DNA of 64,000 nucleotides from Beroe forskalii (taxonomy: Eukaryota; Ctenophora; Nuda; Beroida; Beroidae). The notes under the pieces were generated by a model, which had not been told where the DNA came from, did no database searches, and saw only the letters and a program-made list of their open reading frames with translations. The stretch is from positions 62,001 to 126,000 of the forward strand of contig WFMF01000104.1 in NCBI GenBank assembly GCA_011033025.1, given 5' to 3'. Below are positions 3,431 to 57,500 of this stretch, in pieces (the stretch's first letter is position 1; each line of letters begins with the position of its first letter). Position numbers and translations under genes: made by a program.

Positions 3431-5265
3431 ATTATCATCGTATAGAGGTGTTCTTTCGAAATCTCTTCTTCGAATAGTTCTCATCTTCTGAAAGGGTTAC
3501 ATGATATAACAGTGCACTATGATTTTGCTATACAAGTTACAACTCAGACATCACACAAGCTGAAAAAGTTGCGGATCATCAAGAAAAATTTCAGCAAATT
3601 GATGAAAAGACATCACCGCCATGTCCCTACACTCAGTATACTCACCTTCCTTACAGTTTTAGATTCCTTGTAAGAAACCCTTTGTCTTCCACTAGTGTAT
3701 TTATGTCCTTGAAGTGCGTTCCTTTCAGCCAGCAGTTCCGGACTGGTCCTGTCACTTGTAAAAGAAACTGCTTTGCTTCTTCGAGGGTGTCTCCTCCTCC
3801 TCTTCCTCATTCTCTTCTCTATTCTCGTGATCGTTATTGTAGATTCGGCATTTCTCCAGGCACACGTCCAGAGATCGGGTCGTCATCTTCAGCACATCCT
3901 CACCAGGCATCTCGAAGTTCTGTCTCACACACGGGACTGAGGGGATGGAGGGTGTTATTTTTTTATACCATTGCATAATCTTTCGAGCTGGCCCGGCCAA
4001 GGCCCTCCTGCTCTAATTTTTCTGAGGGCCCTTTCAAACCAATAAAGGGACCTCCGCTTCTTATGTTAGGTCGTTAGATAAGAAATACAACTGGAAAAAA
4101 TAGAAATATGTGGTTGCACTGCAATCTTTCTATTTTCTCCCCTATGTAACTTTTTCCAAATACCAAACCACTTACCTTTTTTCCTTGCAGACCAAGGGAG
4201 TACCCGATGAAGAGACTGAACTGTTTGAACTTGAAGACTATCAAAGCACAGCATGATGTGGAAGAACAGGTTTAAACTGAAAAAGGTTCAAATTCAAAAT
4301 TATATCGTGAGAATTATGCTAAATATTAAGTATAATAAACATCTTCACGAAAACACCATAATGAGTTGTATTTCTATGTTCCACCTAATTTCCTGGTTAA
4401 GCTGTTATACTGAGAGATACTGCTCGCATAATCATCTCTAACTGCTTAGTCGGCGCAAGCATTTATGCTGTACAAGTTTTGTGTTTTGCCAATATATTTT
4501 ACGGGGAGAGATCCCAGAGAGCTGTTATGTATTGCAAAATGTGCCGATTATAGAACCCTGCCGTGAAAAATAATATACCGTTCTAAGTCGTCAATTGATT
4601 ACTCAAGCTATGAAAATGACGTATCTCAGCGCCTATCTCTTAAACTGCCGGGTACTAAATGTTCAAAGTCCTGTACCGAAAAAGAAAGCCTAAACTTTGA
4701 ATGAGGCTGCTCAGAAAAACTACTTTAGAGCAGAGTAAACGGGAGGTTAATTACTGTTGTAGGTCTGCATGTTGGCTACTATACTTAGCTAGTTACTTTT
4801 CCTGGGAGTTAAACTTTGTTTTGAACAATGTAAAGTTTACTTTGTTACAAGATGGTATTTGAGATGGACTTGATTTACTTATAAATGATCACTATTTTTC
4901 TTTTCGTCATGTGCGAAAAGTCCGACCCAATCTTTCCGCCGAAATTCATGCTATCGCTATTTTCGTGATGAATTAATAGTCGGAAATTTATGATAATAAT
5001 TTTTATCAGTGGCTTCAGTGGTGTTATACTCAAGAGTCGCATCGTTTCAATTGATCTGAGTAAATTCTTACATTCTTCCTATGTTTCGAACTGGTTTAGT
5101 GAAACAAGGGGTTATTGATCAAAAGATATTAATGCAATATATTCATTGTGAGCATACCTTAGCTAGACCCTTGGCATGAGGTTTGATGATCTGAATGCAC
5201 CGCTCAGCACAGGACTCCGATCTTTCCACCACCTCACCCATGATCATATCCAGAGAAACTGTCAT
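3431..5265 (-). pseudogene. SURF4-like/PAN copy B, broken
   Basis: Exon 1 is intact at 5158-5265 (36 codons, MTVSLDMIMGEVVERSESCA onward, GTATGC donor). Exon 2 (about 4185-4276) has lost bases, so the first membrane helix shifts frame. Exon 3 (about 3651-3936) has several single-base indels that split the PAN-like module into fragments in different frames. Exon 4 is cut off at about 3431, where homology to the complete copy ends, and no later exons follow. The differences from the complete copy are mostly 1-3 base indels. This fits either decay or uncorrected long-read error in a fold-back assembly. Exon 1 could in principle still splice to copy A further left. Confidence 0.6.
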
Positions 5266-5751
5266 CCTTTCCGCTGACTACTGTACAAGACAGTTGATAA
5301 TAATAGCAATAAAATTTTCACTCCGGAAACACATATACTAAAAAAAGATTCCCTACGACCCACATTCAACACTTTCAATCAAATTAATATGAACAAAATT
5401 CGAAGATCTTATTTATTAGTGACAACTGACTACCCGAGGTATATGAAGTCGGACTTAAGCCCTTAGGGGGTAATTTCTTGAAAGCTCACATATATGTTTA
5501 CATCTTATCTTGATTCCAAATGTCAATTAATTATACTATAACTTTGAAAATATTCTATAGCGAAAACTGATTGATTAGTTAATGAAATAAAGAATACCTT
5601 ACTGAATAATTTGAATAGGGTCGCCGATTCACCCTAAACACACCGATTGCATGTGACCTAGGCAAGGACAGAAGAAAGCAAAGAGTTTCATTCTAAAACG
5701 AAGAGCACAGCAGCAAACGCCACTTTGTAACGAGTATAGATGTATCAATGT

Positions 5752-8700
5752 CATAGCTGCCAATTTGCCCTTCTTTCGCAGGGTGCCCTGCTTTGCCCTT
5801 CTTTTTGCCCTGCTTTGCAAACCGAGCCCTGCTTTAGCAGGGCAAATCAGTCCGAAAGGTACCTATATTTTCCTGTATCATAGGAATAAGATTTTAAAAT
5901 CGGTGAGTTGGAAAAATAAATACCTACACACGAATTGATTAGTATACCTGTAGCCTGAACCCATAATTTTTGGTGTAACTGGTGGTTCAAAAGGTACCCA
6001 TAATTGGTTTGTGTAACTGGTGGTTCAGAAAAGTACCCATAATTGGTAACTGGTGTAACTGGTTATTGAAAGGTACCCATAATTGCTTAGTGTACCTGGT
6101 GGTTCAGAAGGGTACACATAATTGGTTGGTGTAACTGGTGGTTCAAAAAGGTACCCATAATTGGTTGGTGTAACTGGTGGTTCAGAAAGGTACCCATAAT
6201 TGGTTGGTGTAACTGGTGGTTCAGAAAGGTGCCCATAATTGTTAAGTGTAACTGAATGTTAGAAAAAGGTACCCATAATAGGTTGGCGAAACTGGTTATT
6301 GAAAGGTACCCATAATTGCTTAGTGTAACTGGTGGTTCAGAAATGTACCCATAATTGGTTGGTGTAACTAGTGGTTTACAAAGGTACCCATAATTGGTTG
6401 GTGTAACTGGTGGTTCAAAAAGGTACCCATAATTGGTTGGTGTAACTGGTTATTGAAAGGTACCCATAATTGCTTAGTGTAACTGGTGGTTCAGAAATGT
6501 ACCCATAATTGGTTGGTGTAACTAGTGGTTTACAAAGGTACCCATAATTGGTTAGTGTAACTGGTGGTTCAGACTTTAGAAAGGTACCCATAATTTGTTA
6601 GTGTAACTGGTGGTTCAGAAAGGTACCCATAATTGGTTAGTGTAACTGGTGGTTCAGAAAGGTACCCATAATTAGTTGGTGTAACTGGTGGCTCAGAAAG
6701 GTACCCATAATTGGTTAGTGTAACTGGTGGTTCAGACTTTAGAAAGGTACCCATAATTGGTTGTGTAACTGGTGGTTCAGAAATGTACCCATGATTGGTT
6801 GGTGTAACTAATGGTTCAGGAAGGTACCCATAATTAGTTAGTGTAACTAATGGTTCAGAAAGGTACCCATAATTAGTTAGTGTAACTAATGGTTCAGAAA
6901 GGTACCCATAATTGTTTAGTGTAACTGGTGGTTCAAAAGAGTACCCATAATTTGTTAGTGTAACTGGTGGTTCAGAAAGGTACCCATAATTGGTTAGTGT
7001 AACTGGTGGTTCAGAAAGGTACCCATAATTAGTTGGTGTAACTGGTGGCTCAGACAGGTACCCATAATTGGTTAGCATAAGTGGTGGTTCGGAAAGGTAC
7101 CCATAATTAGTTGGTGTAACTGGTGGTTCAGAAAGGTACCCATAATTGGTTGGTGTAACTGGTGGCTCAGAAAGGTACCCATAATTTTTAGGGTAACTGG
7201 TGGTTCAGAAAGATACACATTAATGGTTGATGTAACTGTTTGTTCGAAAAGGTACCCATAATTGGCTGGTGTACCTGGTGGTTCAGAAAGGTACCTATAA
7301 TTGTTTAGTGTAACTGGTGGTTCGGAAAGGTTCCCATAATTGTTTAGTTTACCTGGTGGTTCAGAAAAGTACCCATAATTGTTTATTGTAACTGGTAGTT
7401 CAGAAAGGTACCCATAATAGGTTGGTGTAACTGGTGGTTCAAAAGGTATCCATTATTGGTTGGTGTAACTGGTGGTTCAGAAAGGTACCCATAATTGGTA
7501 ACTGGTGTAATTGGTTATTGAAAGGTACCCATAATTGGTTGGTGTAACTGGTGGTTCAAAAAGGTACCCATAATTGGTTGGTGTAACTGGTGGTTCAAAA
7601 AGGTACCCATAATTGGTTGGTGTAACTGGTGGTTCAGAAAAGTACCCATAATTGGTAATTGGTTATTGAAAGGTACCCATAATTGCTTAGTGTAACTGGT
7701 GGTTCAGAAATGTACCCATAATTGCTTAGTGTAACTGGTGGTTCAGAAAGGTACCCATAATTAGTTGGTGTAACTGGTGGCTCAGAAAGGTACCCATAAT
7801 TGGTTAGTGTAACTGGTGGTTCAGACTTTAGAAAGGTACCCATAATTGTTTAGTGTAACTGGTGGTTCAAAAGGGTACCCATAATTTCTTAGTGTAACTG
7901 GTGGTTCAGAAAGGTACCCATAATTGGTTAGTGTAACTGGTGGTTCAGAAAGGTACCCATAATTAGTTGGTATAACTGGCGGCTCAGAAAGGTACCCATA
8001 ATTTGTTAGTGTAACTGGTGGTTCAGACTTTAGAAAGGTACCCATAATTGGTTGGTGTAACTGGTAGTTCAGAAAGGTACCCATAATTGGTTGGTGTAAC
8101 TGGTGGTTCAGAAATGTACCCATAATTGGTTGGTGTAACTAGTGGTTCAGAAAGGTACCCATAATTGGTTAGTGTAACTGGTGGTTCAGAAAGGTACCCA
8201 TAACTAGTTGGTGTAACTGGTGGTTCAGAAAGTTACCCATAATTGGTGAGTGTAACTGGTGGTTCAGAAAGGTACCCATAATTGAATAATTGATAAGTGT
8301 ATCTGGTGGCTCAGAAAGGTACCCATAATTGGTTAGCATATAAGTGGTTGTTCAGAAAGGTACCCATAATTAGTTGGTGTAACTGGTGGTTCAGAAAGGT
8401 ACCCATAATTGATTGGTGTAACTGAATGTTAGAAAAAGGTACCCATGATAGGTTGACGAAACTGGTGGTTCAGAAAGGTACCCATAATTGGTTAGTGTAA
8501 CTGGTGGTTCAGAAAGGTACCCATAACTAGTTGGTGTAACTGGTGGCTCAGAAAGGTACCCATAATTGGTGAGTGTAACTGGTGGTTCAGAAAGGTACCC
8601 ATAATTGAATAATTGATAAGTGTATCTGGTGGCTCAGAAAGGTACCCATAATTGGTTAGCATATAAGTGGTTGTTCAGAAAGGTACCCATAATTAGTTGG

Positions 8701-9113
8701 TGTAACTGGTGGTTCAGAAAGGTACCCATAATTGATTGGTGTAACTGAATGTTAGAAAAAGGTACCCATGATAGGTTGGCGAAACTGGTGGCTCAGAAAG
8801 GTACCCATGATTTTTTAGTGTAACTGGTGGTTCAGAAAGATACACATTAATGGTTGGTGTAACTGTTTGTTAGAAAAGGTACCCATAATAGGTTGGCGAA
8901 ACTGGTGGTTCACAAAGGTACCCATGATTGGTTGGTGTAGCTGGTGTTCAAAAAGATACCTAAAAGCCTATAGTAGCATGCGTTCATCAGGTGATTTGCC
9001 TGCTAAAATGACGAATTTTGCTCCGCAAAAAGGTACCTATTGCCCTTCTTTTTGCCCTTCTTTTCGTCAAAAATCTTGCCCTGCGACGGTTTTTTCAAAA
9101 TTTGGCAGCTATG
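5752..9113 (-). mobile_element. Nonautonomous hAT-like element with minisatellite core (copy 1)
   Basis: The ends are inverted repeats: CATAGCTGCCAATTT at 5752 and its complement AAATTTGGCAGCTATG ending at 9113. The element is flanked by a perfect 8-bp direct repeat, ATCAATGT, at 5744-5751 and 9114-9121. Inside each end lies a short region rich in AGGGC/GCCCT words, including a GCCCTGCT-AA-AGCAGGGC hairpin near 5830. The rest is the 39-bp tandem array. No transposase frame is present. An 8-bp target duplication plus short ends beginning CA and ending TG is typical of the hAT superfamily; the assignment is inference because no transposase is seen. Orientation is opposite to the copy at 52.6 kb. 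Confidence 0.75.
5950..8950 (-). repeat. 39-bp tandem array (about 75 units)
   Basis: Tandem units of 39 bp. On the minus strand each reads ACCAATTATGGGTACC then TTTCTGAACCACC then AGTTACACTA. The unit is 13 codons long, so spurious frames coding [13 protein letters not shown] repeats stay open in long blocks. Units vary by point changes and by indels such as TTTCTAAAGTCTGAACC, which break any reading frame. Every unit carries a GGTACC palindrome. Higher-order blocks of several units recur (for example 8200-8460 and 8480-8780), showing block duplication as well as single-unit slippage. Confidence 0.9.
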
Positions 9114-13324: not shown

Positions 13325-15148
13325 CTTCAATTATGGGTCCCTTTTTTAACCCCGTTACCAACCAATTTTGGGGCCTTTTAAAAACCAATTTAACCCGTTA
13401 CCAAAAGGGGCCCTTTCTGAACCACCGTTACACCAACCAATAATGGATACCTTTTGAACCACCAGTTACACCAACCTATATGGGTACCTTTCTGGAACTA
13501 CCAGTTACAAATAAACAATTGTAGCAATTTTCTGAACCACCAGGTAAACTAAACAATTATGGGAACCTTTCCGAACCACCAGTTACACTAAACAATTATA
13601 GGTACCTTTCTGAACCACCAGGTACACCAGCCAAGGGTACCTTTTCGGAACAAACAGTTACATCAACCATTAATGTATCTTCTGAACCACAGTTACCCCT
13701 AAAAATTATGGGTACCTTTCTGAGCCACCAGTTACACCAACCAATTATGGGTACCTTTCTGAACCACCAGTTACACCAACTAATTATGGGTACCTTTCCG
13801 AACCACCACTTATATGCTAACCAATTATGGGTACCTGTCTGAGCCACCAGTTACACCAACTAATTATGGGTACCTTTCTGAACCAGTTACACTAACCAAT
13901 TATGGGTACCTTTCTGAACCACCAGTTACACTAACAAATTATGGGTACGCTTTTGAACCACCAGTTACACTAAACAATTATGGGTACCTTTCTGAACCAT
14001 TAGTTACACTAACTAATTATGGGTACCTTTCTGAACCATTAGTTACACTAACTAATTATGGGTACCTTCCTGAACCATTAGTTACACCAACCAATCATGG
14101 GTACATTTCTGAACCACCAGTTACACAACCAATTATGGGTACCTTTCTAAAGTCTGAACCACCAGTTACACTAACCAATTATGGGTACCTTTCTGAGCCA
14201 CCAGTTACACCAACTAATTATGGGTACCTTTCTGAACCACCAGTTACACTAACCAATTATGGGTACCTTTCTGAACCACCAGTTACACTAACAAATTATG
14301 GGTACCTTTCTAAAGTCTGAACCACCAGTTACTAACCAATTATGGGTACCTTTGTAAAAACCACTAGTTACACCAACCAATTATGGGTACATTTCTAAAG
14401 TCTGAACCACCAGTTACACTAAGCAATTATGGGTACCTTTCAATAACCAGTTACACCAACCAATTATGGGTACCTTTTGAACCACCAGTTACACCAACCA
14501 ATTATGGGTACCTTTGTAAACCACTAGTTACACCAACCAATTATGGGTACATTTCTGAACCACCAGTTACACTAAGCAATTATGGGTACCTTTCAATAAA
14601 CCAGTTTCGCCAACCTATTATGGGTACCTTTTCTAACATTCAGTTACACTTAACAATTATGGGCACCTTTCTGAACCACCAGTTACACCAACCAATTATG
14701 GGTACCTTTCTGAACCACCAGTTACACCAACCAATTATGGGTACCTTTTTGAACCACCAGTTACACCAACCAATTATGTGTACCCTTCTGAACCACCAGG
14801 TACACTAAGCAATTATGGGTACCTTTCAATAACCAGTTACACCAGTTACCAATTATGGGTACTTTTCTGAACCACCAGTTACACAAACCAATTATGGGTA
14901 CCTTTTTGAACCACCAGTTACACCAAAAAATTATGGGTTCAGGCTACAGGTATACTAATCAATTCGTGTGTAGGTATTTATTTTTCCAACTCACCGATTT
15001 TAAAATCTTATTCCTATGATACAGGAAAATATAGGTACCTTTCGGACTGATTTGCCCTGCTAAAGCAGGGCTCAGTTTGCAAAAAGCAGGGCAAAAAAGA
15101 AGGGCAAAGCAGGGCACCCTGCGAAAGAAGGGCAAATTGGCAGCTATG
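13325..15148 (+). mobile_element. hAT-like minisatellite element, copy 2 (left end missing)
   Basis: Reverse-complement duplicate of copy 1. The right end is intact: AGGGC-rich terminal region, then GGCAGCTATG ending at 15148, followed by ACATTGAT, the complement of the target duplication at copy 1. The left terminal sequence is absent. The array starts abruptly at about 13325 in degraded units and has about 40 repeats. Because it shares insertion site and flank with copy 1, it arose by duplication of the whole region, not by a separate insertion. Confidence 0.75.
13540..14940 (+). repeat. 39-bp tandem array (about 36 units)
   Basis: Same 39-bp unit as at 5.95-8.95 kb, now in plus orientation. 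The block order near 13810-14320 mirrors 6570-7080 closely, including the TTTCTAAAGTCTGAACC variant, which supports an inverted duplication. The array is shorter than its partner, so units were lost or collapsed. Confidence 0.88.
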
Positions 15149-15638
15149 ACATTGATACATCTATACTCGTTACAAAGTGGCGTTTGCTGCTGTGCTCTTC
15201 GTTTTAGAATGAAACTCTTTGCTTTCTTCTGTCCTTGCCTAGGTCACACATGCAATCGGTGTGTTTAGGGTGAATCGGCGACCCTATTCAAATTATTCAG
15301 TAAGGTATTCTTTATTTCATTAACTAATCAATCAGTTTTCGCTAAGTAGAATATTTTCAAAGTTATAGTATAATTAATTGACATTTGGAATCAAGATAAG
15401 ATGTAAACATATATGTGAGCTTTCAAGAAATTACCCCCTAAGGGCTTAAGTCCGACTTCATATACCTCGGGTAGTCAGTTGTCACTAATAAATAAGATCT
15501 TCGAATTTTGTTCATATTAATTTGATTGAAAGTGTTGAATGTGGGTCGTAGGGAATCTTTTTTTAGTATATGTGTTTCCGGAGTGAAAATTTTATTGCTA
15601 TTATTATCAACTGTCTTGTACAGTAATTAGCAGAAAGG

Positions 15639-18600
15639 ATGACAGTTTCTCTGGATATGATCATGGGTGAGGTGGTGGAAAGATCAGAGTCATGTGCTGA
15701 GCGGTGCATTCAGATCATCAAACCTCATGCGAAGGGTCTAGCTAAGGTATGCTCACAATGAATATATTGCATTAATATCTTTTGATCAATAACCCCTTGT
15801 TTCACTAAACCAGTTCGAAACATAGGAAGAATGTAAGAATTTACTCAGATCAATTGAAACGATGCGACTCTTGAGTATAACACCACTGAAGCCACTGATA
15901 AAAATTATTATCATAAATTTCCGACTATTAATTCATCACGAAAATAGCGATAGCATGAATTTCGGCGGAAAGATTGGGTCGGACTTTTCGCACATGACGA
16001 AAAGAAAAATAGTGATCATTTATAAGTAAATCAAGTCCATCTCAAATACCATCTTGTAACAAAGTAAACTTTACATTGTTCAAAACAAAGTTTAACTCCC
16101 AGGAAAAGTAACTAGCTAAGTATAGTAGCTAACATGCAGTAGACCTACAACAGTAATTAACCTCCCCGTTTACTCGCTCTAAAGTAGTTTTTCTGAGCAG
16201 CCTCATTCAAAGTTTAGGCTTTCTTTTCGGTACAGGACGAACATTTAGTACCCGGCAGTTTAAGAGATAGGCGCTGAGATATCACGTCATTTTCATAGCT
16301 TGGAGTAATCAATTGACGACTTAGAACGGTATATTATTTTTCACGGCAGGGTTCTATAATCGGTACATTTTGCACACATAACAGCTCTCTGGGATCTCTC
16401 CCCCGTAAAATATATTGGCAAAACACAAAACTTGTACAAGTATAAAATGCTTGCGCCGACTAAGCAGTTAGAGATGATTATGCGAGCAGTATCTCTCAGT
16501 ATAACAGCTTAACCAGGAAATTAGGTGGAACATAGAAATACAACTCATTATGGTGTTTCGTGAAGATGTTTATTATACTTAATTACTTAGCATAATTCTC
16601 ACGATATAATTTTGAATTTGAACCTTTTTCAGTTTGGAACTCTGTTCTTCCACATCATGCTGTGCTTCCTGATAGTCTTCAAGTTCAAACAGTTCAGTCT
16701 CTTTATCGGGTACTCCCTTGGTCTGCAAGGGGAAAAAAGTAAGTGGTTTGGTATTTGGAAAAAAAGTTACATAGGGAGAAAATAGAAAGATTGCAGTGCA
16801 ACCACATATTTCTATTTTTCCAGTTGTATTTTATCTAACGACCTTAACATAAGAAGCGGAGGTCCCTATTGGTTTTGAAAGGGCCCCCTAGAAAAAATTA
16901 GAGCAGGAGGGCCTTGGCCCCGGGCCAGCTCGAAAGATTATGCAATGGTATGTAAAAAAATAACACCCTCCATCCCCTCAGTCCCGTGTGTGAGACAGAA
17001 CTTCGAACTGCCTGGTGAGGATGTGCTGAAGATGACGACCCGATCTCTGGACGTGTGCCTGGAGAAATGCCGGATCTACAATAACGATCATGAGAATAGA
17101 GAAGAGAATGAGGAAGAGGAGGAGGCAGCCTCGAAGAAGTGCAAAGCAGTATCTTTTACAAGTGACAGGACCTTCAGTCCGAACTGCTGGCTGAAAGGAA
17201 CGCACTTCAAGGATAATACACTAGTGGAAAGGCAAGGGTTTCTAACAAGGAATCTAAACTGTAAGGAAGGTGAGTATACTGAGTGTAGGGACATGGGCGG
17301 TGATGTCTTTCATCAATTTGCTGAAAATTTTTCTTGATGATCCGCAACTTTTCAGCTTGTGTGATGTCTGAGTTGTAACTTGTATAGCAAATCATAGTGC
17401 ACTGTTATATCATACAACCTTTCAGAAGATGAGAACTATTCGAAGAAGAGATTTCCGAAGAACACCTCCTATACGATGATAACCCTGACTCTCCTAGTTC
17501 TTCTCACAAGAATTGTTTCTCTGGTCCTGATTGTGCTCAACAGACACATCTTCCTAGCGTGTACCCTCCTGGCTGTACCCTTCATAGTAACAGTAAGTGA
17601 TTCCAAACCGCTGCGGGGGGCCAGCTAGACCCCTGATAAGCTCTTCACACTTTCATATCATATTATGCTATTATGATATTAACGATCAGTAAGTGTTTGT
17701 TTGAGTGGGTCATTGTTACTTTGCATTTGCAACTTCTTACTTTCTCACTTTCTTCATATCAGTGAGTTGCACGAGCTGCTGTATCATTATTAACGATCTA
17801 TTTTCTAATCTACTTCGCAAGTGATAATATTCAAACGTTTCAGATTTTCATTCAATTGAAGTTTATGTTGGACATGAATTTCCATCCATCTTCTTTTCCT
17901 TATTTTCTAACGTGAGTTGAACGAAGTTGTCCCGAATTCTTAACTTAAAGCAGTTTTCTATAACTCTGCAACTTAACATCCTGCCCCCATTGACTAAATA
18001 TATTATTTAACTCAACATTTCATGCACTTTCAACCCTCTAACCCTCTGACATCTCCTGACTGCAGGATTCTGAGTCTGATTGGGTGTCTGCTGATGGTAT
18101 TAGCAGAGAGCTTGGAAGAGAAGGACCTACATCTGGTGGGTCTACCCAGCTGGGGCGTCAACAAGAGGATGAGTTACATAACCCTCATCTGCAGGATCAA
18201 CATCGTGTGTATCATTTTCGGGGTCAGTTTTACTTATAATAGGTTTTCTTGGCTGGTTTCCTAGACAGACCAGTGTTATCTATCGATCATGGCGGAAAAT
18301 CCTTACGCATTACTTCGTTAGTGTTTGTTTGTTCTCTGTTGATTTTAATTTGGATCTTGATTACCAAAAACATCAAATTAGCAAAACCACGTGATTGCAA
18401 CTTTAACATGTAAAAATACTAACAATATATTCAATTACAGAGTCAGATGAGTCGGACCCTTGATTACATCTTCCAGAGAAATGGAGATATAGGGATAATC
18501 GCTGTCATCCAGCTAATTGTAAGTCTTTTAGTCTTTTACGTAAGTAATTATTTGCTTTAATAATGTACTATGTCGTAGTAGGTAATGACTATAAAGATTA

Positions 18601-19443
18601 TAATTGTCTTAGAACTTTAGCTAGCAAGTTGAAATGTGATTCCATTTATGAATTGTTCATAACAGTTCATTACATTCTAAATTGCCGTCAACCACCCCAT
18701 GAAATGAACCATTCCACCCCTCCATCACCATCTCTTCCTCCGCAGCTTCTTATTCCAGTAGTGATATCAGTGGTAGTAGGCTACAAAACCAAAGTGATGT
18801 CAGTCATCCTTGCAGCTTGGCTTACTCTAGCCTCCCTCTTCCTGCATCCCTTCTTCCTCCACTTGGCTCAGGGCATGACCTTCAAGTACGTTATTTCCAC
18901 ATGTTCCGAGATGTTATCGATGATTTAGTAATTTCTTAAATTTACGGGTTCCGGTAACTTTGGATCAAATTAAACTCTAAAGGTCCGAGTACATATGGAT
19001 TTGAACGTTACAGTCGACTATCATACGATATGTTCTAAGAATCAAAGTGCAAAATTTTGAAATGATTATTAAGTTTCATAAGATCATACTTCAAATCTGC
19101 ACATCAAATTTCAGGTTTTGGATGGATGTTATTTTCTTTGGTGTCAACTTTTCTGGCGTGGGATCACTAATCTACATAGCTGTTTTAGGTAAGTGACTAA
19201 TCTACAATGCTGTTCTAGATAAGTTGTGCATTTATTTTTGTGTGTTCAGTGTTGCACGAGGTTTTGTTATGTCAATTGCTGGAGAAAAATAAGAAAAAAA
19301 AAAAACTTTCGTTATTGAACAATAATTTCTTTGACTACAGTAGCTTAGAAGATCATTATTTAAGTGTCTCCAGTCTGTTATATATGCCTTGAATTATTAC
19401 TATGAATACTCCAGGGGCTATAGATCCTGGTAGCGTTAATTAA
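15639..19443 (+). CDS. SURF4-like ER cargo receptor with a PAN-like luminal insert (complete, ten exons)
   Basis: Exons: 15639-15746, 16633-16738, 16982-17269, 17426-17592, 17844-17911, 18066-18222, 18441-18518, 18746-18885, 19115-19188, 19415-19443. All junctions are GT-AG and phases match throughout, giving 404 residues. Exons 4-10 follow SURF4 in order: LKFMLDM, LLMVLAESLEE, the GYKTKVMSVILAAWL helix (SURF4 has GFKTKLAALTLVVWL), FWMDVIFFGVNFSGVGSLIY, and a short glycine-containing tail. Exon 1 resembles the SURF4 N-terminal helix. Exon 3 encodes about 95 residues absent from human SURF4 (269 residues): PCVRQNFELPGED, LDVCLEKC, an EENEEEEE stretch, KKCKAVSF, PNCWLKG and NLNC, the six-cysteine pattern of PAN/apple modules. 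It lies between helices 1 and 2, expected to face the ER lumen. SURF4 exports soluble cargo from the ER. The last exon is the least certain. Confidence 0.78.
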
Positions 19444-51519: not shown

Positions 51520-54500
51520 TGAAGCAGCGAGTTTACTCCCTGTGTTATCCTGAGGTGCGTATACCCCACTTCCTTGAGGTACAGTAACTTCTTGTACTCG
51601 GGCATGTCGTAGTTCTGACAAACCTGGAGGGTACAGTCATGACTTACAAAAATATGGAAAAAAAAGTACATTCCTCTGGGTTGTTATTAAAACAATTTTC
51701 ATCTCCATCGCTATCATCTCTTCATCGTTATCATCACTTCAACTAGGGATTATAGCGAGAAAAAAGAGAATTTAGGAAAGATACGAACCTTTCGCACGTT
51801 GTTAATGATATCTTCTGAGGAGTAGCCTAACTTCCAGAGGGAATGTAGGATCTTGTAAGCGGCGTCTATCTCCTGCTCGAGGCAGTGCTTCAACATGTCC
51901 TTGACAAGGAGGGGATGGGGCTCGTCACACACCTTGAACACATTCGTGCTGTTCACGATACCGTAGCCCTGGGGAGGCGAGGGGTAAGTGGGAGTGAGTG
52001 GGCGTGTGGGAGTGGGTGGGTGTGAGAGGTGAGAGAGAGAGTGAGAGGTGAGAGGGAGGGAGAGGTGAGTGCGAGTGAGAGGTGAGTAGGAATGAGAGGT
52101 GAGAGAGAGTGAGAGGTGAGAGGGAGTGAGAGGTGAGTGGAAGTGAGGTGAGTGGGAGTGAGAGGTGAGTGGAAGTGAGGTGAGTGGGAGTGAGAGGTGA
52201 GTGGGAGTGAGAGGATTAGCGGCTTAGTAGCATAATGAGGATTCTAGCGTTTAATAAGGAAAAGAAATGCCGAAATCCATGATGGATTGGAGTAGTGTCG
52301 GGAATAGTTAATGGAGGATTGGAGGAATACGGATTTGTAAGTTTGCCATATTCTTGAGAAAAAAGCCACCATTTACACTTGAAGCCGACCTGGTGTGTTG
52401 CTTGAAGGTTGTTAATAGCCTGCCTCATGTCCCCTTGAGCAGTGAAGATGACAGCCTCCAAACCATCGTCTGTTTTCACAACGTTCTCAGTGTCACAGAT
52501 CTGTAGGAGTCGAGACAGTACTTGAGCGTCCGTTACACGCGAATACCTGTAACAAAGGGTACTTGTAGTGCTATGCTGCATTTCCATATCATTTCGTAGA
52601 CGGTAGAACATGCCTTAGATCATAGTTGCCAAATTTTGAAAAAACCGTCGCAGGGCAAGATTTTTGACGAAAAGAAGGGCAAAAAGAAGGGCAATAGGTA
52701 CCTTTTTGCGGAGCAAAATTGGTCATTTTGGTCATTTTAGCAGGCAAATCACCATAGGCTTTTAGGTACCTTTTTGAACACCAGCTACACCAACCAATTA
52801 TGGGTACCTTTTCGAACAAACAGTTACACCAACCATTAATGTGTACCTTTCTGAACCACCAGTTACACTAAAAAATTATGGGTACCTTTCTGAACCACCA
52901 GTTTCGCCAACCTATTATGGGTACCTTTTCTAACATACAGTTACACCAATCAATTATGGGTACCTTTCTGAACCACCAGTTACACCAACTAATTATGGGT
53001 ACCTTTCTGAACCACCATTTATGCTAACCAATTATGGGTACCTTTCTGAGCCACCAGATACACTAATCAATTATGGGTACCTTTCTGAACCACCAGTTAC
53101 ACTCACCAATTATGGGTACCTTTCTGAGCCACCAGTTACACCGACTAATTATGGGTACCTTTCTGAACCACCAGTTACACTAACAAATTATGGGTACCCT
53201 TTTGAACCACCAGTTACACTAAACAATTATGGGTACCTTTCTGAACCACTAGTTACACCAACCAATTATGGGTACATTTCTGAACCACCAGTTACACCAA
53301 CCAATTATGGGTACCTTTCTGAACCACCAGTTACACCAACCAATTATGGGTACCTTTCTAAAGTCTGAACCACCAGTTACACTAACCAATTATGGGTATC
53401 TTTGTAAACCACTAGTTACACCAACCAATTATGGGTACATTTCTGAACCACCAGTTACACTAACCAATTATGGGTACCTTTCAATAACCAGTTACACCAA
53501 TTACCAATTATGGGTACTTTTCTGAACCACCAGTTACACTAACCAATTATGGGTACCTTTCAATAACCAGTTACACCAATTACCAATTATGGGTACTTTT
53601 CTGAACCACCAGTTACACCAACCAATTATGGGTACCTTTTTGAACCACCAGTTACACCAAGCAATTATGGGTACCTTTCAATAACCAGTTACACCAGTTA
53701 CCAATTATGGATACCTTTCTGAACCACCAGCTACACCAACCAATTATGGGTACATTTCTGAACCACCAGTTACACTAACCAATTATGGGTACCTTTCAAT
53801 AACCAGTTACACCAATTACCAATTATGGGTACATTTCTGAACCACCAGTTACACTAACCAATTATGGGTACCTTTCAATAACCAGTTACACCAATTACCA
53901 ATTATGGGTACTTTTCTGAACCACCAGTTACACCAACCAATTATGGGTACCTTTTTGAACCACCAGTTACACCAAGCAATTATGGGTACCTTTTTGAACT
54001 ACCAGTTACACCAACCAATTATGGGTACCCTTCTGAACCACCAGTTACACTAAGCAATTATGGGTACCTTTCAATAACCAGTTACCAATTATGGGTACTT
54101 TTCTGAACCACCAGTTACACCAACCAATTATGGGTACCTTTTTGAACCACCAGTTACACCAACCAATTATGGGTACCTTTTTGAACCACCAGATACACTA
54201 AAAAATTATGGGTACCTTTCTGAACCACCAGTTTCACCAACCTATTATGGGTACCTTTTCTAACATACAGTTACACAAATCAATTATGGGTACCTTTCTG
54301 AACCACCAGTTACACCAACTAATTATGGGTACCTTTCTGAACCACCATTTATGTTAACCAATGTCCAATTATGGGTACTTTTCTGAGCCACCAGATACAC
54401 CAATCAATTATGGGTACCTTTCTAAACCACCAGTTACACTCACCAATTATGGGTACCTTTCTGAACCACCAGTTACACTAACAAATTATGGGTACCCTTT

Positions 54501-57500
54501 TGAACCACCAGTTACACCAACCAATTATGGGTACCTTTCTGAACCACTAGTTACACCAACCAATTATGGGTACATTTCTGAACCACCACTTACACCAACC
54601 AATCATGGGTACCTTTCTGAACCACCAGTTACACCAAGCAATTATGGGTACCTTTCTAAAGTCTGAACCACCAGTTACACTAACCAATTATGGGTACCTT
54701 TCTGAGCCACCAGTTACACCAACTAATTATGGGTACCTTTCTGAACCACCAGTTACACTAACCAATTATGGGTACCTTTCTGAACCACCAGTTACACTAA
54801 CAAATTATGGGTACCCTTTTGAACCACCAGTTACACTTAACAATTATGGGTACCTTTCTGAACCACTAGTTACACCAACCAATTATGGGTACATTTCTGA
54901 GCCACCAGTAACACCAGCCAATTATGGGTACCTTTCTGAACCACCAGTTACACTAACCAATTATGGATACCTTTGTAAACCACTAGTTACACCAACCAAT
55001 TATGGGTACAATTCTGAACCACCAGTTACACTCACCAATTATGGGTACCTTTCAATAACCAGTTACACCAGTTACCAATTATGGGTACTTTTCTGAACCA
55101 CCAGTTACACCAACCAATTATGGGTACCTTTTTGATCCACCAGTTACACCAACCAATTATGGGTACCTTTCAATAACCAGTTACACCAGTTACCAATTAT
55201 GGGTACCTTTCTGAACCACCAGTTACACAAACTAATTATGGGTACCTTTCTGAACCACCAGTTACACTAACCACCTATGGGTACCTTTCTGAACCACCAG
55301 TTACACTAACAAATTATGGGTACCCTTTTGAACCACCAGTTACACTAAACAATTATGGGTACCTTTTTGAACCACCAGTTACACCAACCAATTATGGGTA
55401 CCTTTTTGAACCACCAGTTACACCAACTAATTATGGGTACCTTTCTGAACCACCAGTTACACTAACCAATTATGGGTACCTTTCTGAATCACCAGTTACA
55501 CTAACAAATTATGGGTACCCTTTTGAACCACCAGTTACACTAAACAATTATGGGTACCTTTCTGAACCACTAGTTACACCAACCAATTATGGGTACATTT
55601 CTGAACCACCACTTACACCAACCAATCATGGGTACCTTTCTGAACCACCAGTTACACCAAGCAATTATGGGTACCTTTGTAAACCACTAGTTACACCAAC
55701 CAATTATGGGTACAATTCTGAACCACCAGTTACACTCACCAATTATGGGTACCTTTCAATAACCAGTTACACCAGTTACCAATTATGGGTACTTTTCTGA
55801 ACCACCAGTTACACCAACCAATTATGGGTACCTTTTTGAACCACCAGTTACACCAACCAATTATGGGTACCTTTCAATAACCAGTTACACCAGTTACCAA
55901 TTATGGGTACCTTTCTGAACCACCAGTTACACCAACCAATTATGGGTACCTTTTTGAACCACCAGCTACACCAACCAATTATGGGTACCTTTCTGAACTA
56001 CCAGTTACAATAACCAATTATGGGTACCTTTCTGAGCAACCAGTTTCGCCACCAATTACACCAACCAATTATGGGTACCTTTCTGAACCACCAGTAACAC
56101 TAACAATTATGGGTACTTTTCTGAACCGCCAGGTAAACTAAACAATTATGGGAACCTTTCCGAACCACCAGTTACACTAAACAATTATGGGTACCTTTTT
56201 GAACCACCAGTTACACTAACCAATTATGGGTACCTTTCTGAACCACCAGTTACGCCACCAATTACCACAACCAATCACAAAAACCAATTTTGGGTACCTT
56301 TCTGAACCACCAGTTAAACTAAACAATTATGTGCACCTTTCTGAACCACCAGTTACACCAACCAATTATGGGTACCTTTCTGAACCACCAGTTACACTAA
56401 CCAATTGTGGGTACTGTTCTGAACCACCAGTTACCCCGAACCAATTATGGGTACCTTTTCGAACAACCAGTTACTCAGTTACACCATTCAATTATGGGCA
56501 CCTTTCTGAGCCACCAGTTACGCCACCAAGTACACCAACCAATTACGGGTACCTTTCTAAACCACCAGTTACACTAACCAATTATGGGTACCTTCCTGAA
56601 GCAACAGTTACAACATCAATTATGGGTACTTTTCTGAACCACCAGTTACACTAAACAATTATGGGCACCTTTCCGAACCAACGGTTACACTAACCAATCA
56701 TGGGTACCTTTCTGAACCACCAGTTACGCCAACCAATTATGGGTACCTTTCCGAACAACCAGTTACACCAACCAATTATGGGTACCTTTTCGAACAACCA
56801 GTTACACCAACCAATTATGGGTACCTTTCTGAACCACCAGTTACACTAACCAATTATGGGTAGGTACCTTTCTGAACCACCAGTTACATCAACCAATTAT
56901 GGTTACCTTTCTCAACCACCAGTTACACTAAACAATTATGGGTACCTTTCTGAACCACCAGTTACACTGAGCCATTATGGGTACCTTTTCGAACCACCAG
57001 TTACACTGAGCAATTATGGGTACCTTTTCGAATAACCAGGTAACTTTGGGTATTGGGTATTTTTGACACTTATGCTCATCCTGCTAAGTATACTTTTTTA
57101 AACTGCACTAACGTCCATACCAATATAAGTACTTTTAAAAATTGAAATAGTGCCGATACCATCTTCAGCATTTCTGTGTTCCACAAAATACACAACTTTG
57201 CAGAAATTCGATAAACCCATCGATGAAGATGCTTGTAATCCAAATGATGATTGATGAATCACTGATTCAGGCTACAGGTATACTAATCAATTAGTGTGTT
57301 TTTATTTTTCCAACTCACCGATTTTAAAATCTTATTCCTATGATACAGGAAAATATAGGTACCTTTCGGACTGATTTGCCCTGCTAAAGCAGGGCTCGGT
57401 TTGCAAAGCAGGGCAAAAAGAAGGGCAAAGCAGGGCACCCTGCGAAAGAAGGGCAAATTGGCATCTATGCCTTAGATACGTCACTGTACGATGCTGGGAG

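Follow-up and report, generated by a model that had tools for sequence, protein, structure and literature searches.

The SURF4-family gene and its local copies

The window analysed here, a 64,000-nucleotide stretch of one contig of the ctenophore Beroe forskalii, carries on its forward strand a gene at 15639-19443 whose ten phase-consistent exons encode a predicted protein of 404 aa belonging to the SURF4 family. SURF4 is a well-studied animal receptor that exports soluble proteins from the ER. The ten exons proposed from splice sites by an earlier sequence-only reading of this DNA could all be located, with phases in agreement, and all nine introns start with GT and end with AG. Exon 1 (15639-15746) ends at a GT donor and encodes the N-terminus before the first transmembrane helix (TM1), aa 1-36, which aligns with the N-terminus of relatives in Mnemiopsis and Bolinopsis and would be cytosolic by homology with SURF4. 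Exon 2 (16633-16738, phase 1 at its end) contributes the predicted TM1 and the start of the predicted first luminal loop. It is followed by exon 3 (16982-17269), a symmetric phase 1-1 exon of 288 nt that encodes a six-cysteine PAN module containing an acidic stretch, assigned on the basis of the Pfam families PAN_1 and PAN_4, its splice sites and codon-level constraint. Exon 4 (17426-17592) supplies the end of the loop, with the sequons NYS and NTS, and then TM2 onward. The SURF4 core extends over exon 5 (17844-17911), exon 6 (18066-18222), exon 7 (18441-18518) and exon 8 (18746-18885), the latter with a GYKTK motif, while exon 9 (19115-19188) encodes the last predicted transmembrane helix.

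Exon 10 as proposed (19415-19443) would add a short tail before the stop and is doubtful, as 6 of its 29 sites and a 2-nt gap differ in a neighboring copy of the gene (copy A, described below), the tail of which reads otherwise. With this doubtful exon the predicted tail of the protein is GAIDPGSVN, without KKxx-type, DE or EW motifs, and a search of 4.9 kb did not detect the tail that the relatives in Mnemiopsis and Bolinopsis have. The model matches the SURF4 family (PF02077) over aa 179-397 with 58.4 bits, above the curated cut-off of 27. Its hydropathy fits a multi-pass core of about eight helices at poor resolution, as do the helices in a low-confidence structure prediction of the Mnemiopsis relative. 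The proposal that exons 1-2 and 4-10 follow SURF4 is borne out by the profile match and by the alignment of the relatives, exon 10 being its weak part. Omission of exon 3 from the model leaves a protein of 308 aa in the same frame.

Two further copies of the gene occur on the minus strand, and the gene at 15639-19443, which is open throughout, is referred to here as copy B. Exons 2-4 of copy A lie at 1-1153, with the PAN exon at 471-761 (288+3 nt), and exons 5-10 continue beyond the window on the same contig (locus L006). These three exons measure 106, 291 (288+3) and 167 nt, in agreement with the earlier statement that exons 2-4 of this copy are kept at equal or codon-multiple lengths. No exon 1 of its own directly precedes copy A; a partial third copy intervenes (3432-5897, read from about 5897 to 3432), which bears an exon 1 without indels and frameshifted exons 2 and 3.

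Compared with copy B, exons 2 and 3 of the third copy differ at about 6% of sites plus indels, more than the 1.3-2.6% of its introns. This pattern is opposite to that produced by selection and unexpected under plain decay, and consensus error or a mixed origin is a possible explanation. Another duplicate, restricted to the exon 1 segment (window 15149-16359) and 91% identical to it, is present elsewhere in the genome (C44:31471-32643, locus L065 of genome G000), with no other exons reported nearby. Repeated DNA is also common around the cluster. A 39-bp minisatellite forms three arrays (5959-8960, 13412-14938 and 52765-57027), and beside the second of them a unit of about 200 bp (14950-15150) occurs on many contigs, with at least 36 further matches among the 40 candidates scored out of 281; it looks like a dispersed mobile unit that ends about 490 bp before exon 1. 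A dispersed repeat of about 90 bp (16860-16955) is located in intron 2, close upstream of exon 3, and has at least 37 further matches among the 40 scored of 54 candidates.

A PAN-like exon under coding constraint

Exon 3 encodes six cysteines (aa 74, 97, 101, 125, 140 and 165), in agreement with the core of four to six cysteines given for the PAN domain in PMC9249922, together with 18 acidic and 15 basic residues. Taken alone it matches PAN_1 with 21.2 bits (E 2.6e-4; cut-off 21.4) and PAN_4 with 18.2 bits, and exon 3 of copy A matches PAN_1 with 20.7 bits. A 14-residue acidic stretch separates the third from the fourth cysteine, and without it the scores of exon 3 rise to 27.5 bits for PAN_1, above the cut-off, and 23.0 bits for PAN_4. 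None of seven shuffled versions of the exon matched a PAN family, one of them reaching E 0.0084 with an unrelated family. The exon resembles PAN/apple domains (PF00024, PF14295) in its six cysteines and in matching both profiles, and differs from them by the acidic stretch inside the domain and by its multi-pass membrane host. The description of exon 3 as a single-exon, six-cysteine PAN/apple-like module with an acidic stretch agrees with these results. The comparison with SURF4 and PAN profiles that had been suggested along with it was clear for the SURF4 part and mixed for the PAN part, which passes the cut-off without the acidic stretch, falls just below it as is and reaches only 15.3 bits for PAN_1 when the full 404-aa model is used.

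Exon 3 is absent from the genome-wide PAN_1 matches listed by an exon-by-exon search (best 150 of 222 candidates scored), a sequence search of solved structures returned two unrelated matches (best E 1.4) for exon 3 and none for the Mnemiopsis relative, and neither of the two has a match in NCBIfam. Structure prediction, which had also been suggested for placing the loop, gave a mean pLDDT of 36 for exon 3 (alignment of two sequences) and 53 for the Mnemiopsis relative (three sequences), values too poor for a judgement of the fold of the exon or for a fold search. Of the three forward frames of exon 3, just the one used is open; by chance, 2.8% of random 285-nt stretches of the window are open in a given frame. 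A separate gene nested at this position was considered and rejected, as the exon is a single 96-aa frame with an acceptor on one side and a donor on the other.

The comparison of copies A and B, which are recent copies with small numbers of substitutions, provides information on how this exon has been used. Over exons 2-10 the two copies differ at 24 of 1107 sites (2.2%), and over introns 2-9 at 138 of 1665 (8.3%); intron 8 is an outlier (53 of 226 sites), and without it the intron figure is 85 of 1439 (5.9%). Exon 1 and intron 1 enter neither figure. Exon 3 itself shows 7 substitutions in 288 sites and one in-frame indel of 3 nt, a lower rate than that of its two flanking introns (24/394; p 0.025) or of introns 2-9 minus intron 8 (85/1439; Fisher p 0.014). 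Once the split first codon is included, six synonymous changes in 60.2 sites are found against two nonsynonymous changes in 227.8 sites, one of the latter falling in the part of that codon contributed by exon 2; with the counts rounded, the Fisher test gives p 0.0013. The corresponding numbers for exons 2-9 are 13 in 242.5 and 5 in 834.5 sites; the synonymous counts cover neither exon 1 nor exon 10, nor the codon inserted in copy A. The excess of synonymous over nonsynonymous change in exon 3 argues for its use as protein-coding sequence in this frame ever since the two copies split, in support of the selection that had been claimed for it, and its splice sites are retained in both copies.

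The genome is rich in PAN domains, with at least 150 scored matches at E <= 0.1. Outside the cluster, the proteins nearest to exon 3 are encoded on contigs C304 (36% identity) and C1 (30%), over 33 aa and with E values of 0.53 and 1.1 that are not significant on their own. The local score between exon 3 and the C1 unit was reached by none of 1000 shuffles; the unit had been cut by hand and picked after the genome search, and the alignment covered no more than the first 34 residues of exon 3. The C1 locus (L033, C1:1265477) holds an open frame of 219 aa that comprises two PAN-like units and no SURF4 part; its start is hydrophobic and leader-like by eye, and the start of its first PAN-like unit resembles that of exon 3. 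A DNA search of the same genome did not find the source of the PAN exon, the only full matches among the 40 best of 54 candidates being the three local copies.

A diverged paralogue with an insert in its helix 1-2 loop

A separate, ordinary SURF4 gene is encoded on contig C323 and is the sole gene listed by a genome-wide exon-by-exon search for SURF4; its model lacks the N-terminal exon and the end of its third exon is uncertain. It is 62% identical to human SURF4 over 232 positions, whereas the window gene is 22% identical over 260 positions, and the window gene was rejected as the ordinary SURF4 on these figures. The two genes have two intron positions and phases in common, those before exon 6 (phase 2) and exon 8 (phase 0) of the window gene. 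Since the genome has this second, ordinary SURF4, the window gene is, judged by sequence, a diverged SURF4 paralogue and not the orthologue. The window protein shares with the SURF4/Erv29 family the profile match and the GYKTK and GxP core motifs; it differs, as modelled, in the absence of the FLEDG motif, of the acidic loop residues and of a coat-binding tail, and in the additional 96-residue PAN exon. The label of SURF4-type cargo receptor applied earlier to this gene is adequate for the family and has to be qualified in that the gene is a diverged paralogue, missing in its current model the acidic loop residues and a tail of the SEC24/COPI type.

Among about 5.8 billion proteins searched, three of 6962 candidates matched at E <= 10: ACHWQZ_G009442 of Mnemiopsis leidyi (307 aa), LOC134815251 isoform X2 of Bolinopsis microptera (307 aa) and an unnamed protein of 229 aa, which is devoid of the N-terminal part and so uninformative on the loop. 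A profile search, in which just the candidates sharing most words were scored, recovered the same three relatives (3 matches among 7999 scored). The Mnemiopsis and Bolinopsis proteins, both from ctenophores, are 48% and 46% identical to the SURF4 part of the window protein, and they are close in size to the 308 aa of the model without exon 3. Like the window protein, they have a loop between helices 1 and 2 that is longer than that of human SURF4; unlike it, they join these helices by a short loop with no PAN block, and they retain a basic tail ending in (DH)MKRQ or MKQQ.

The PAN module has been either gained in the window lineage or lost in Mnemiopsis and Bolinopsis, and we infer a gain. No PAN-bearing SURF4 was found by the profile search of the protein collection (7999 scored), a search of the same collection with the PAN region alone gave ten candidates and none at E <= 10, and no report of a SURF4 with a PAN or apple domain, or of SURF4 in ctenophores or Mnemiopsis, was found in the open-licence literature. 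Within the limits of these searches the earlier statement that no SURF4 is known with such an insert is upheld. By sequence comparison, and within the same limits, both the SURF4 family and the PAN domain would be of known kind and the presence of PAN in the helix 1-2 loop of a SURF4-type protein would be new.

The position of the insert can be compared with what is described for human SURF4. The termini of SURF4 are thought to be cytosolic and AlphaFold predicts eight helices; residues 49-60, E50, D53 and D56 among them, form the predicted first luminal loop, to which the basic CW motif of Sonic hedgehog binds directly (PMC8931250). Also described are a luminal pocket that accepts ER-ESCAPE motifs, a Phe-loop on the cytosolic side and, at the C-terminus, DE and EW motifs through which SEC24 is bound (PMC11557686). 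Exon 3 maps between helices 1 and 2, as had been proposed, and the human equivalent of this region is the predicted first luminal loop: the insert-bearing loop starts directly after the position of human residue 60 and ends at helix 2. By homology with SURF4 the loop would face the ER lumen, and the two sequons just past PAN in the same loop fit such a position without proving it. At the equivalents of E50, D53 and D56, aligned by eye, the window model is acidic at none of three positions and the ordinary SURF4 of this genome at one of three. Because of these missing residues and the lack of a lysine or EW tail as modelled, a cargo-receptor role of the window protein is not assured; that PAN acts as a dedicated capture domain is plausible.

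A probable ligand-binding domain on a SURF4-type core

The best explanation, to which we assign a probability of about 0.62, is that the locus encodes a second, diverged SURF4-family protein that carries a PAN domain, as one phase 1-1 exon, in its helix 1-2 loop, where it would expose a luminal ligand-binding surface. This variant apparently arose through exon shuffling, a symmetric PAN exon having been inserted into the cargo-contact loop of a SURF4 paralogue. With the loop expected to be luminal by homology with SURF4, the domain would fold there with its disulphides, in the ER lumen, and would become extracellular should the protein travel on to the surface. Its binding surface would lie at the place where human SURF4 binds basic cargo motifs by an acidic helix. 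Most likely, PAN binds ligands in the lumen, where the SURF4-type membrane core anchors it. Should this core have kept its cycling between ER and Golgi, the module would re-specify a cargo receptor; otherwise the protein would be a recognition protein of the cell surface or of granules. The more specific proposal that a shuffled-in extracellular recognition domain makes a new receptor, with the plug-in PAN domain and not the acidic helix setting the choice of cargo, is at present tentative, and it stands below even odds.

The assumption that exon 3 is constitutively included bears on how the gene is expressed. Exon 3 could be an optional cassette that most transcripts skip, giving the 308-aa form, with the PAN form as a minor or tissue-specific isoform. 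Since the exon is symmetric, skipping preserves the frame, and the resulting size is near the 307 aa of the Mnemiopsis and Bolinopsis proteins; moreover, the Bolinopsis record is titled 'isoform X2', so that another isoform presumably exists. However, the protein encoded by exon 3 is constrained between the copies and both copies preserve its splice sites, so the exon would be used at least sometimes, and we regard predominant skipping as unlikely, with odds near one in four. Far less credible is that the inverted copies are assembly artefacts or recent duplication debris, in which a PAN exon without lasting function sits in a decaying or mis-assembled cluster. The frameshifts of the third copy in exons 2 and 3, its many indels of 1-3 nt, introns included, and the dispersed repeats nearby are of the kind expected from such a history, but copy B is open throughout, its exons 2-10 differ less from copy A than introns 2-9 do, with or without intron 8, and neither decay nor sequencing error would yield the low nonsynonymous change observed.

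A different possibility concerns the site of action. The protein may have lost its retrieval or coat-binding tail and operate outside the ER, on the cell surface or within secretory granules, where PAN would serve in adhesion or recognition. The model does lack a KKxx-type, DE or EW tail, PAN is abundant in this genome, and PAN-bearing proteins are reported to be enriched in cell recognition (PMC9249922). Against this, the C-terminal exon is uncertain and the missing tail may be an error of the model, and the PAN-less relatives keep their basic MKRQ or MKQQ end; we consider a non-ER protein improbable, on a par with the skipped cassette.

The locus clearly illustrates the placement of a phase 1-1 exon within a multi-pass membrane protein. 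A whole domain of binding type lies, as a clean exon, in the loop to which the cargo contact of SURF4 has been mapped, and relatives devoid of PAN are available, which makes the re-specification of a receptor by domain insertion testable. If true, it would represent a natural example of a cargo receptor re-specified by a PAN domain.
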